From a virus, in IMG/VR virus record IMGVR_UViG_3300035698_019089, positions 1 through 23,485 of that record: a stretch of 23,485 nt of DNA; one strand, given 5' to 3'. Below, in pieces: positions 1,861 through 17,246 of this stretch (position 1 is the first letter of the stretch; every line of letters starts with the position of its first letter). The notes beneath the pieces were generated by a model. The model had not been told where the DNA came from. It saw nothing but the letters and a program-made list of their open reading frames with translations, and did not search any database. The position numbers and the translations under genes are program-made.

Positions 1861-2013
1861 ATTACTGCTCACAGGTCAGTATACGATACCATCAATGCAA
1901 CAGGCCGCTGTCCAAAAAATTTCAACTTCGGCCAAGGTTGTCAAGTTACTCTCGTAAATAATCCAAAGCAAATTGGCGGAAACCTGAATTTTATTTTTAA
2001 AGGCAAATTATGA
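1861..2013 (+). pseudogene. start-less open frame, possible gene remnant
   Basis: Between the 84-aa gene and the tRNA-like element, one frame stays open for 50 codons after a TGA at 1858-1860. Its translation looks protein-like, with segments such as SVYDTINATGRCP, NFNFGQGCQVTL and GGNLNFIFKGKL, and has two cysteines and a beta-rich pattern. There is no ATG, GTG or TTG in the frame, so it cannot be an ordinary gene as written. It may be the 3' remnant of a decayed small virion gene, or be reached by an unusual start (ATT 1861) or frameshift. Its stop overlaps an ATG (ATGA, 2010-2013) that opens a 12-codon frame ending inside the tRNA-like element. Confidence 0.3.
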
Positions 2014-2038
2014 CAAAAGTTAAGGACAGAAAAAATGC

Positions 2039-2111
2039 GCGGGTTTAGTTCAACGGTAGAACATGCGACGACCAGTCGCAAGATGGCGTTCAAATCGACC
2101 AACCCGCTCCA
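2039..2111 (+). tRNA. tRNA-Gly-like gene, anticodon ACC, aberrant loop
   Basis: A 73-base tRNA-like sequence including an encoded CCA end. The acceptor stem GCGGGTT (2039-2045) pairs perfectly with AACCCGC (2101-2107), followed by discriminator T and CCA. The D-arm is canonical (GTTC 2048-2051, loop with GG 2055-2056, GAAC 2059-2062). The anticodon stem TGCGA/TCGCA (2064-2068, 2076-2080) closes a loop CGACCAG, which places ACC (2071-2073) at positions 34-36. The T-loop TTCAAAT (2089-2095) is canonical, but its stem GGCG/CGACC has a mismatch or bulged A. The GCGGG acceptor, T discriminator and D-arm resemble bacterial tRNA-Gly. Oddities: position 33 is G instead of the near-universal U, C32 and G38 can pair to shrink the loop to five bases, and the variable loop is short. 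It lies 11 bases before the terS start codon. It may be a functional, degenerate or repurposed tRNA. Confidence 0.65.
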
Positions 2112-2122
2112 ACTTTTGTAAA

Positions 2123-2587
2123 ATGGACAAGCTGACCGAAAAACAAAAAAGGATTGCAAAGCTGTTTAAAGATGCCAGTAAAGCTATAACAAAAAACAAA
2201 CTTTTTTTTATTGAGGACGTCGTTTGTATGTTGCCAATATCAAAGCCAACTTTTTACGACTATTATCCGGTTGGCTCTGACGATTTTAACGCGTTAAAAG
2301 AATTGCTTGACCAAAACAGAATGTCAATAAAAGTATCTTTACGCAATAAGTGGTTTAAATCAGAGTCGGCGGCCTTGCAAATGGGCTTGATGAAAATCAT
2401 TGCCAGTGAGGATGAATTGAGGCGGCTGTCCAATAGGTCGGACGCTCAGCAAGCACAAGCAGATCCGGGCGATGAAGTTGGAATTGTTGAGGTGCCGGGT
2501 ATAATGACAATTGAAGATTGGGAAAAGGCCGGAAAAGAATCAACACAAAGAATAGCACTTGCACATTCCAAAATGGAAGCTGAGTGA
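2123..2587 (+). CDS. terS: terminase small subunit
   Basis: A 154-aa protein identified mainly by position directly upstream of the large terminase and by its architecture. The N-terminal part (about residues 1-60) has a helix-turn-helix-like region with the segment SKPTFYDYYPVG, as in DNA-binding domains of small terminases that recognise the packaging site. A central helical region (about 60-110) fits oligomerisation, and the acidic C-terminus would contact TerL. I start it at ATG 2123; the frame is open up to an ATG at 2063, but that codon is inside the tRNA-like element. ATG 2123 has no Shine-Dalgarno sequence and follows the encoded CCA end by only 11 bases. The stop overlaps the TerL start (TGATG). 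Confidence 0.75.
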   Translation: MDKLTEKQKRIAKLFKDASKAITKNKLFFIEDVVCMLPISKPTFYDYYPVGSDDFNALKELLDQNRMSIKVSLRNKWFKSESAALQMGLMKIIASEDELRRLSNRSDAQQAQADPGDEVGIVEVPGIMTIEDWEKAGKESTQRIALAHSKMEAE

Positions 2588-3987
2588 TGACAGCTAAAGC
2601 CGCCTGGCGACCAAATCCCGGCAGTCAACAATTGTTTTTGGCATGTCCAATCAATGAAGTTCTTTTGGAGGGGAACAGGGGCGGCGGCAAGACTGAAACC
2701 TTAATTTTTGATTACCTTATGGGCGTGAATAAAGGATGGGGTCAGCATTATCGCGGGATTCTGTTCAGGAACGAGTACAAGCATTTGGCCGATGTAATAA
2801 ACAAATCAAAAATTCTCATTCCCAAAATATTTCCCGCCGCAAAGTTTCATACATCAGCAAGCTCATTAAAATGGATTTTCCCGCAAGGTGAGGAGTTGTT
2901 ATTCAGGCACGCAAAAAAAATGTCCGATTACGACGCGTTCCATGGACACGAATACCCGTGGCAAGGTTTTGAGGAGCTGACCAAGTTTCCAAACCTTGAT
3001 TTTTATGACGCCATGCGTTCTTGTTGTCGCTCACCCATCCCGGGAATTCGCAAACGCAGAGTGTCAACTACAAACCCGTTTGGTATTGGTCACAGCGCGG
3101 TCAAGGCGCGATTCATTGACCCGGCACCAGCCAATACGGTTATTGAAGAAAACGGCCTTAAAAGGGTCAGAATTCAGTCCAGCTTTATAGAAAACCCGTA
3201 CATTTTTAAGAATGACCCGGAATACATACAATTCTTAAAGGGCATAAAGGATGAAAACGTCAAAAAGGCTTGGTTGTATGGTGATTGGAATATAGTAGCC
3301 GGTGGAGCTTTCGACGACCTTTGGAATGAATCAATACACGTTTATAATCCGGCCAAAGTCGTTATCCCAACCCATTGGAAAATATTCCGCTCATTTGATT
3401 GGGGTTCATCCGCGCCATTTTCGGTCGGTTGGTGGGCTTTATCGCCTGGCGAGTCTATCCAGTGGGATGGCAAGACAAAATACCTACCCAAAGGCAGCTT
3501 GTTAAGGATTGGTGAGTGGTACGGGGCTAAAAAAGGCGAAATTAATGTCGGTCTTAGAATGACGAATGAAAAGATAGCAAAAGGCATTCTGGAACGTGAA
3601 AAAATAAACGGCTGGAACGTTAAGCCGGGCGCTGCTGATTCTGCTATTTGGGCTGACGCTCATGGTGAGGGGCGTTCAATTTATGATACCTTTAAGGAGT
3701 GTGGCGTTAAATTTGAGAAAGCCGTTAAAGGTCCAGGCTCAAGAAAAATGAGGATGTCATTATTGCGCGATATGTTAGAATCAAGCAATGACGGCAATCC
3801 TGAGGCACCGCAAATTTATGCCTCACTTAATTGCAGGGAATTTATAAGACAGATTCCATTATTGCCAAGGGATGAAAAAGACTACGAAACCGTAGACAGT
3901 TCCGGCGAAGACCATTTGTACGATGAATCAACATATCAAGTTTTAAACCAATCCAAATTAGGAGGTAGTTTCACCCATGGATACTAA
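2587..3987 (+). CDS. terL: terminase large subunit
   Basis: A 466-aa ATPase/nuclease motor that translocates DNA into the procapsid. Walker A is G29-N-R-G-G-G-K35-T36. A Walker B-like acidic strand (WQGFEELT) follows near residues 122-129, and a coupling motif STTNPFG lies near 160-166. The C-terminal RNase H-like nuclease begins with FDWGSSAPF near 270 (first catalytic Asp), has a DSAIWADAHGEG block near 350, and ends with an acidic EDHLYDE motif near 443. Length is normal. The ATG overlaps the terS stop as TGATG; a GTG three bases upstream is an alternative. The 3' end overlaps the portal gene by 11 bases. Confidence 0.95.
   Translation: MTAKAAWRPNPGSQQLFLACPINEVLLEGNRGGGKTETLIFDYLMGVNKGWGQHYRGILFRNEYKHLADVINKSKILIPKIFPAAKFHTSASSLKWIFPQGEELLFRHAKKMSDYDAFHGHEYPWQGFEELTKFPNLDFYDAMRSCCRSPIPGIRKRRVSTTNPFGIGHSAVKARFIDPAPANTVIEENGLKRVRIQSSFIENPYIFKNDPEYIQFLKGIKDENVKKAWLYGDWNIVAGGAFDDLWNESIHVYNPAKVVIPTHWKIFRSFDWGSSAPFSVGWWALSPGESIQWDGKTKYLPKGSLLRIGEWYGAKKGEINVGLRMTNEKIAKGILEREKINGWNVKPGAADSAIWADAHGEGRSIYDTFKECGVKFEKAVKGPGSRKMRMSLLRDMLESSNDGNPEAPQIYASLNCREFIRQIPLLPRDEKDYETVDSSGEDHLYDESTYQVLNQSKLGGSFTHGY
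3960..3966 (+). promoter_or_regulatory. strong ribosome binding site of the portal gene
   Basis: AGGAGGT lies inside the 3' end of terL, 10 bases before portal ATG 3977. It is the best Shine-Dalgarno match in the head block and fixes the portal start despite the overlap with terL. Confidence 0.8.
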
Positions 3988-7234: not shown

Positions 7235-8362
7235 ATGTCAAACACTTTAACAAATATAATCCCGCGTTTATTAGGCCGCGGCTTAATGAGCTATCGCCAA
7301 ATGTTACCTTTTGTCATGAGCGCAAACCGAGATTACGAAGCGGACGCGGCTCAAAAGGGTTCAACAATTGACGTACCTATCTCAAAACCAAAAATCGCCA
7401 CCGACGTTACTCCATCCGGAAACCGACCCGACGCGCTGCCATCTAGCGACCAAGGCCTGGTTCAAATCCAGTTAGATAATTGGCAAGAGGTCGAGTTCAA
7501 TTTAACGGACAAAGACAAGAAGCTGATTGAAAAAGACGATTACTTCATGCCGATGGATTTTCACGAAGCCGTCAAAGCACTCGCAGAATCGGTTGAAACT
7601 TCGGTTGCTTTACAGTACAAAGACGTTTATTCAGTCGTTGGAACAGCAGCAACAACCCCGTTCGCCTCAGACACAACCGCGGCTATCAATGCGCGTAAAA
7701 AATTAAATGAGTACGGCGTACCGAAAACAGACCGCACGCTAATTGTTGACAATGACGCTGGAGCCAATATGCTTGCTTTACCGGCATTTTCCCAGGTTGA
7801 CCAATCGTCTGACAGCAGATTGATTATTGATGGCGAGATTGGCCGTAAACTTGGCTTCATGAACATTGAGGGCAACACGGTTCAAACTCACACAACCGGT
7901 GCTGCCGGTACGCCATTGACCGACGGCGGAAACACTCTAGGTGATACTGTTGTTAAAATTGACGGGTTCTCAACAGTCCCATCAGTCGGCGATATTTTCT
8001 CATTAGCCGGGAACGACCAAACCTACACGGTAATCTCAGCAACACCACTGGCAACCGGCGAAAGTGATTTAACTATCCAACCGCCATTAGCCGCTACTGT
8101 TGCGGATGGCGTGGCAGCCACTTTTGTTGCGACTCACGTTGCCAACTTAGCCATGCACCGAGATGCTTTGACATTCTCAACCAGACCTCTGGAGGGCAGC
8201 GACTCAAGCGCGGCTGATATCTCATACATGCCAGACCCTGAAACCGGCTTGGTGTTGAGAGTTGAGGTTGCAAGAGCTCATAAAGCTGACATCTGGTCAC
8301 TTGATGCGCTTTGGGGTTCAAAAATGGTTCGTCCATACGCCGCAACCCGCGTCTTAGGTTAA
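7235..8362 (+). CDS. major capsid protein, P22 coat family
   Basis: A 375-aa HK97-fold coat protein of the P22 gp5 type. Family features are the opening SNTLTNIIPRLLGRG, an early strand with TPSGNRPD, a long helical spine with VETSVALQYKDVY near 115, the GTAATTPFAS and PKTDRTLIVDNDAGANML segments, and a C-terminal LAMHRDALTFSTRPLEG motif near 305. Between about residues 229 and 299 lies an inserted beta domain (GDTVVKIDGFSTVPSVGDIF, then QTYTVISATP), comparable to insertions seen in P22-like coats, where they aid folding and stability. The gene follows the scaffold, has an inverted repeat over its leader, and is followed by a strong terminator, which isolates the most abundant virion protein. 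Confidence 0.92.
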   Translation: MSNTLTNIIPRLLGRGLMSYRQMLPFVMSANRDYEADAAQKGSTIDVPISKPKIATDVTPSGNRPDALPSSDQGLVQIQLDNWQEVEFNLTDKDKKLIEKDDYFMPMDFHEAVKALAESVETSVALQYKDVYSVVGTAATTPFASDTTAAINARKKLNEYGVPKTDRTLIVDNDAGANMLALPAFSQVDQSSDSRLIIDGEIGRKLGFMNIEGNTVQTHTTGAAGTPLTDGGNTLGDTVVKIDGFSTVPSVGDIFSLAGNDQTYTVISATPLATGESDLTIQPPLAATVADGVAATFVATHVANLAMHRDALTFSTRPLEGSDSSAADISYMPDPETGLVLRVEVARAHKADIWSLDALWGSKMVRPYAATRVLG

Positions 8363-8849: not shown

Positions 8850-9334
8850 CCATTAACGCGACGCCCATGTCACAATCCGCTAATTCATTTGTAACTTTGG
8901 CCGAGGCGAACGCTTATCATGATGCCAGGCTTCATAACGCAGAATGGACAGCGGCTTCAGACCCAGACAAAGAAAAAGGAATCAAGCAAGCAACTAGAAT
9001 GCTTGACCAGTTATCTTACTCAGGCAGCCCAAAGACAAGTGACCAGGCTTTGAAGTTTCCGAGGGTTAGTATATTTGAAGATGACGGCGACGCCTTTGAC
9101 GATTTAACAATACCAAAATTTATGATAGAGGCGACAAGCGAATTGGCTTGGCTGCTTTTAATTAGCGATACAACCCGTGATTCAGGAACAAAAGGTTTTT
9201 CTCAAATCAAAGCTGGTCCAGTTAGCTTGTCAGTGGCGCCAACAGATAGAGCGAACGATTTTCCAGAGGCAGTCATGGCAATGATTAAGCCCTGGTTATG
9301 GAATCGCGGTGAAGTCAGGATTAAACGAGGGTGA
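8846..9334 (+). CDS. head-tail adaptor (DnaT_2-like family)
   Basis: A 162-aa, mainly helical protein at the adaptor position after the coat. The N-terminal NSFVTLAEANAYHDARL, a Trp a few residues on, then KQATRMLDQLSYSG and LKFPR follow the pattern of the phage family labelled as putative DnaT-like ssDNA-binding proteins. That label is a misnomer in this context: members lie in the head-completion cluster and resemble gp6-type connectors that ring the portal. The C-terminus (EAVMAMIKPWLWNRGEVRI) fits the adaptor tail. It overlaps its neighbours by 4 bases on each side, consistent with coupled translation. Confidence 0.75.
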   Translation: MTINATPMSQSANSFVTLAEANAYHDARLHNAEWTAASDPDKEKGIKQATRMLDQLSYSGSPKTSDQALKFPRVSIFEDDGDAFDDLTIPKFMIEATSELAWLLLISDTTRDSGTKGFSQIKAGPVSLSVAPTDRANDFPEAVMAMIKPWLWNRGEVRIKRG

Positions 9335-16731: not shown

Positions 16732-17246
16732 TTTTATCAGCCGGACAAGCAACCGAAATAGCCAAGGCGGTTAGAAAGCCGCGATTGTTGGTTAAAATGA
16801 TAATGAACGGGACTGAGGTCAGATTGTCGTCCGGTGGAACGGTCACATATAATAGCCAGGTTTATTTGAAGTCCGGCGTCTCTATGGAGCGAATAAAAAC
16901 CGGAAAAGGCGGAATATCAAGAGGTCGCTTACACCTTGCTAATGAAGATAATGTCTACACAAGACTGGCAATTGGCGGGGCTGGTTTTGAATTTATATCG
17001 GTTGAGGCTTGGAGTTATTACGGCTCAGGCAATCCCGCTTTGGATGATGTTGTTAAGGAGATGGACGGCGAAGTTATAGCGATTCCATCAATGAATTCAA
17101 AAGAGATTGTATTGGATTGCGCCACTACCGGCGGCTTGACAAAATTTGTTCCAGATTACAGTCTTGGCACCGGCGTAAATCACATGCCACAAAGCGGCCA
17201 ATCTTTTTTAATTGGATCTGAATATTACGTAGTGGAGATTAAATAA
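16728..17246 (+). CDS. tail tip protein, gpL/DUF2163-like position
   Basis: A 172-aa protein directly after the tape measure. It starts at GTG 16728 (GTGA overlap). A short helix (ATEIAKAVRKPRLLVKMIM) is followed by beta-rich sequence with VTYNSQVYLKSGVSMERIKT and ISRGRLHLANED, a pattern seen in baseplate-hub and DUF2163-type proteins of siphophage tail tips, ending SGQSFLIGSEYYVVEIK. It has few cysteines and no iron-sulphur motif like lambda gpL. It probably contributes to the ring joining tape measure and tip, but the exact family is not certain. Confidence 0.5.
   Translation: MILSAGQATEIAKAVRKPRLLVKMIMNGTEVRLSSGGTVTYNSQVYLKSGVSMERIKTGKGGISRGRLHLANEDNVYTRLAIGGAGFEFISVEAWSYYGSGNPALDDVVKEMDGEVIAIPSMNSKEIVLDCATTGGLTKFVPDYSLGTGVNHMPQSGQSFLIGSEYYVVEIK

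Follow-up and report, generated by a model that had tools for sequence, protein, structure and literature searches.

How is a phage gene translated when a tRNA, and no ribosome binding site of its own, lies directly in front of it? This question is raised by a viral DNA of 23,485 nt (IMG/VR record IMGVR_UViG_3300035698_019089, the whole of which is called here the window), in which an earlier note had described a tRNA-Gly-like element with an odd anticodon loop just upstream of terS, the putative gene of the small terminase subunit. Our leading explanation, which we hold tentatively, is that a tRNA-Gly that is probably non-decoding sits between the ribosome binding site and terS, and that terS is translated by coupling to an open reading frame (ORF) that crosses the tRNA. 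The features of the locus are collected in Table 1.

Table 1. Features around the tRNA-Gly-like element and terS (positions in the window)
Feature	Position	Strand	Basis
Left arm ACAAAAGTT of a 9-bp inverted repeat around the tRNA	2013..2021	+	Folding, pair probability 0.7-0.98
Shine-Dalgarno-like AAGGA, 8 bases ahead of ATG 2035	2022..2026	+	Sequence; duplex of -5.8 kcal/mol with the 16S tail
AAAATG direct repeat, left copy (leader start codon)	2032..2037	+	Sequence
28-codon leader ORF (MRGFSSTVEHATTSRKMAFKSTNPLQLL, then stop) through the whole tRNA, ending 1 base before the terS ATG	2035..2121	+	ORF reading
tRNA-Gly(ACC)-like element: G33, T-stem one base short, U73, encoded CCA	2039..2111	+	ARAGORN, Rfam, folding, alignment
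Anticodon loop CGACCAG (G33, A34, C32/G38 pairable)	2069..2075	+	Sequence, ARAGORN, loop comparison
Right arm AACTTTTGT of the inverted repeat, spanning the last tRNA base and the terS leader	2111..2119	+	Folding, pair probabilities
AAAATG direct repeat, right copy (terS start codon)	2120..2125	+	Sequence
terS, putative small terminase subunit, start without its own Shine-Dalgarno	2123..2587	+	Position, phi10:1 and L003 matches
terL, large terminase subunit	2587..3987	+	TerL relatives in viral contigs

The element upstream of terS is a tRNA-Gly with two lesions

ARAGORN called a tRNA-Gly(acc) at exactly 2039-2111, the sole tRNA in the window, and the Rfam tRNA model matched positions 2039-2108 with 42.2 bits (gathering threshold 29, E 5e-6). 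The RNA of the element folds at -25.5 kcal/mol, which is more stable than each of 200 dinucleotide shuffles (z -3.4), and the element that the earlier note had proposed is thus real. Direct reading confirmed its acceptor stem (7/7 pairs), D-arm (D-stem 4/4), T-loop (UUCAAAU), discriminator U73 and encoded CCA, and added an anticodon stem of 5/5 pairs extended by C32-G38, so that the whole can be drawn as a cloverleaf ending in CCA. Glycine identity in tRNA-Gly is carried by U73, G1-C72, C2-G71 and C35 C36; sequence and alignment place all of them in the element. The expected tRNA contacts U8-A14, A15-U48, GG18-19 with UC55-56 and U54-A58 were also found by inspection.

Against this background two faults are clear. 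Position 33 is a G, and the T-stem is one base short: the T-arm reads GGCG-UUCAAAU-CGACC, which gives four pairs and a bulged A in place of five pairs. The bulged T-stem and the short variable loop, both listed in the earlier note, are present, but since one extra base would give five T-stem pairs, they are probably one event, the loss of a single base. The score of 42.2 bits is low compared with the 52-75 bits of most intact phage tRNAs. Normal decoding, doubted by the earlier note, is indeed unlikely with G33 and a shortened T-stem, and the element is probably a phage tRNA-Gly gene whose decoding function has been lost. It resembles phage tRNA-Gly genes, which are of bacterial type, in G1-C72, C2-G71, G3-C70, U73, C35 C36 and the encoded CCA, and its D-arm GTTC..GAAC is that of the tRNA-Gly(UCC) of two viral loci, L164 and L133; it differs from them in G33, A34, the missing T-stem base and its location inside a Shine-Dalgarno-led ORF. 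In the cell-wall tRNA-Gly of staphylococci, the D/T-loop contacts used by EF-Tu are altered and binding is weakened. The likeness to these tRNAs that had been suggested proved weak, as GG18-19 and UUC54-56 are intact in the element and its D- and T-loops show no such alteration.

G33 is rare but occurs in other phage tRNA-Gly genes

We compared the anticodon loop with those of 786 distinct tRNAs called by ARAGORN in the window and in the fetched viral loci L002-L191. T33 was found in 758 of them, C33 in 20, G33 in 5 and A33 in 3, so that the element has G where a functional elongator tRNA-Gly is expected to have U33. Among the 123 tRNA-Gly of this set, three carry G33, the window's element included, and four have the anticodon ACC, rightly called rare in the earlier note. 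That note had taken the whole loop CGACCAG as odd. G33, A34 and C32-G38 are all there, but the last two features are not unique: the tRNA-Gly at L150:7070-7142 (minus strand) has the loop CTACCAG, which differs only in having U33. Because a U33 tRNA-Gly shares both, A34 and the C32/G38 pair of the element need not be damage. Unlike the element, the L150 tRNA has a full T-stem, and the peroxiredoxin-like gene that follows it has its own Shine-Dalgarno. The D-loop of this tRNA is short and its anticodon is the rare ACC; the locus may be bacterial DNA inside the viral collection.

The G33 genes of two T4-like viral contigs, L136 (47.8 bits) and L160 (42.1 bits), are related to each other and of another kind. 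These tRNA-Gly(UCC) genes (L136:1593-1664 and L160:7379-7450) have the loop TGTCCAA and a shortened D-loop, and each is preceded by a promoter-like TTGACT..TACTAT/TATTAT and followed by a terminator-like hairpin. They look like maintained, stand-alone, non-standard tRNAs, and for this reason G33 alone is no proof of decay or of lost function. They share with the element a tRNA-Gly fold with G33 and differ from it in the UCC anticodon, the shortened D-loop, their own promoter- and terminator-like sequences and a position that is not ahead of terS. They offer a separate test case for whether phages retain non-decoding tRNAs.

The element itself might likewise be a maintained non-decoding or nuclease-resistant tRNA-Gly, with the altered loop acting as a decoy or as an escape from a host anticodon nuclease, since phage tRNAs with anticodon-loop changes have been predicted to evade host tRNases (PMC10264068). 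Besides the L136 and L160 genes, the intact acceptor, D- and anticodon stems, U73 and CCA speak for such maintenance. Against it, the T-stem has lost a base, none of the relatives found has the same loop, a search of the plus strand just around the element found no promoter-like or terminator-like site that could set it up as a separate gene, and the leader ORF, if translated, would unfold the element. On balance we find this explanation unlikely.

A Shine-Dalgarno-led ORF runs through the tRNA to the terS start

Two features of the context go beyond the earlier note, namely a Shine-Dalgarno-led ORF that crosses the tRNA and a 9-bp inverted repeat that flanks it. The leader ORF begins at ATG 2035, four bases ahead of the tRNA, and stops at TAA 2119-2121, next to the terS ATG at 2123. 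As had been noted, the only leader left to terS itself after the tRNA is 11 bases (2112-2122) without a Shine-Dalgarno (duplex energy +0.9 kcal/mol). The locus thus has the layout of a coupled pair, in which an upstream ORF bearing a ribosome binding site ends next to the downstream start, and in which the downstream start is predicted to lack a Shine-Dalgarno and to sit in an outer stem. This arrangement supports the suggestion of the earlier note that the element bears on terS expression.

Two other readings of the junction were rejected. A terS start at ATG 2063, inside the tRNA, has a weak Shine-Dalgarno, and a match to Cellulophaga phage phi10:1 favours a start near 2123. Selection of the T-stem deletion for setting the leader frame was discarded because any of the three frames would terminate within or close to terS. 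A further short ORF of the window (MTKVKDRKNARV and stop, 2010-2048) has as its stop TAG bases 8-10 of the tRNA, and in the viral locus L010 the upstream frame likewise terminates at tRNA bases 8-10.

To judge chance, a qualifying leader was defined as a 5-base Shine-Dalgarno followed by an ATG-initiated ORF of 15 codons or more whose end lies between -12 and +4 of the terS start. In these controls, which were chosen after the feature had been seen and concern a feature carried by one genome, shuffling the upstream 250 bases gave such a leader in 6 of 3000 sequences, and shuffling only the flanks around the unchanged tRNA gave one in 14 of 5000; a flanking repeat of 9 bp or more arose in 30 of 5000 shuffles. 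The fetched viral loci, window included, contain 779 tRNAs with enough flank. A Shine-Dalgarno-led ORF crosses 3 of them, and 5 lie within a flanking repeat of 9 bp or more, which makes about 0.5% for each feature. When only the 107 tRNAs with an ORF of at least 80 aa within 30 bases were considered, the window's tRNA was the only one with a Shine-Dalgarno-led crossing ORF ending at or near the next start. Crossing ORFs that lack a Shine-Dalgarno and end close to the following start are frequent chance events, seen at about 1 in 6 of these tRNAs. Also, many phage genes directly after a tRNA have no Shine-Dalgarno, so that a bare start in this position is not rare and terS may need no coupling.

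Coupling is the normal style of the operon

Inside the window, neighbouring genes overlap or come within 5 bases of each other at 19 of the 26 junctions. The junction at 17246/17248 carries TAAAATGG, identical to the leader/terS junction; the end of terS and the start of terL share TGATG; and in L002, which holds the closest TerL relative (69% identity), the gene in the place of terS starts at GTG 1428 and overlaps the upstream stop at 1429-1431. From these observations we conclude that coupling is the normal style of this operon. Outside this tight packing, positions 1835-2009 comprise about 170 bases without a clear gene, between an 84-aa ORF that ends at 1834 and the element.

The identity of terS is putative and is based on its position, on its best match, a phi10:1 protein encoded just upstream of terL (59% over 91 residues, in agreement with a start near 2123), and on a C-terminal match to an L003 protein that is also encoded upstream of terL; PHROG and Pfam gave no family match. 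Relatives of TerL in viral contigs were 38-69% identical and those of the portal protein only 24-28%, while TerS had only two there, one in phi10:1 and one in L063, the latter matching over a short C-terminal stretch. The upstream gene at 1580-1834 and the ORF at 7235-8362 had no relatives in viral contigs, and TerL had none in genome contigs. No tRNA was found in the available DNA of L002, L003 and L004, nor at the terS/terL locus of phi10:1. Other TerL relatives do have tRNAs upstream of terL (tRNA-Lys in L010, tRNA-Gln in L011, tRNA-Met in L005), and in L010 and L011 direct reading showed a separate Shine-Dalgarno-like sequence for the gene that follows the tRNA.

Searches for the element elsewhere gave no close relative near enough for a comparison of compensatory changes. 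When viral contigs were searched with a pattern that combined the G33 loop with the same D-arm context, 20 matches were returned, with no tRNA at these sites. A looser tRNA pattern, also run on viral contigs, and the D-arm pattern in genome contigs gave no matches, and BLAST against phage records gave partial matches only. The earlier claim that selection had kept the outer fold was therefore not upheld, as the searches turned up no relative bearing the element and recent decay would also account for two lesions in a single genome. The position just before terS would suit a DNA structure of the packaging region (cos/pac), which had also been proposed, or an attachment site with a tRNA in it by coincidence. 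Nevertheless, the closest TerL relatives, L002 and L003, and the closest TerS relative, phi10:1, are devoid of the element, no integrase was recognised in the window, and a damaged T-stem misfits the need of an attachment site to restore a host tRNA, which makes this explanation hardly credible.

The main rival to coupling is decay without a role: a plain decaying phage tRNA-Gly lying in front of terS, crossed by an ORF and flanked by a repeat by chance, with terS initiating without a Shine-Dalgarno. The two lesions are at near-universal or paired positions, the covariance-model score is low, starts without a Shine-Dalgarno are common after tRNAs, and tRNA genes near terL come and go, being found in L010, L011 and L005 and absent from L002-L004. 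On the other hand, decay would leave to chance both a Shine-Dalgarno-led ORF that ends right at the next start and a 9-bp repeat around the tRNA, each a rare event among viral tRNAs, in an operon where coupling is the rule. We consider decay without a role possible, though doubtful.

A model for terS translation through the tRNA

In the coupling model that we prefer, ribosomes would load at AAGGA and ATG 2035 and read the tRNA as a 28-codon leader, melting the tRNA and the outer 9-bp stem, and would then stop at TAA 2119-2121 and restart at the terS ATG 2123. The presence of AAAATG at both start codons would be expected if the tRNA had entered at the old terS start and separated this start from its ribosome binding site; we infer that the tRNA gene may have arrived by insertion at this repeat, displacing the old site and leaving terS dependent on translation of the leader. 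A stop and a start one base apart, a downstream start without a Shine-Dalgarno and a structure over that start are also seen in the translational coupling of phage late operons. What sets the window apart is that a tRNA sequence, read as mRNA, takes the place of the upstream gene. If correct, the model would illustrate how a phage can live with, and perhaps later exploit, a tRNA gene that came to lie between a ribosome binding site and the essential gene behind it, and how tRNA sequence can become a translated leader. It would also advise caution, in that odd phage tRNAs called by software need to be read alongside the ORFs that cross them.

Folding bears on how such a leader could work. In context, ACAAAAGTT and AACTTTTGT form a perfect 9-bp stem that encloses the tRNA and covers the terS leader, and the computed cost of opening the terS start is 9.8 kcal/mol in the long transcript compared with 5.7 kcal/mol without the tRNA and everything upstream. 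The same RNA might then exist either as a tRNA whose additional outer stem masks the terS start or as a translated ORF that starts terS, with output following the balance of folding or processing and translation; we regard this extension as rather unlikely. A structural switch, in which tRNA processing competes with leader translation and the end cuts remove the ribosome binding site and tune terS down, appears very improbable. The site does lie upstream of the tRNA and would be lost on 5′ maturation, and the remaining 11-base leader is bare, but the computed accessibility of the terS start rises, rather than falls, once the tRNA is gone, and the T-stem damage may reduce processing. Flanking repeats of this kind can be longer than that of the window: in L084, the 3′ flank of a tRNA-Lys (9043-9117, minus-strand coordinates of the locus) opens with 13 bases, CCATATACGGGGT, whose complement lies about 50 bases upstream of the tRNA-Lys gene.
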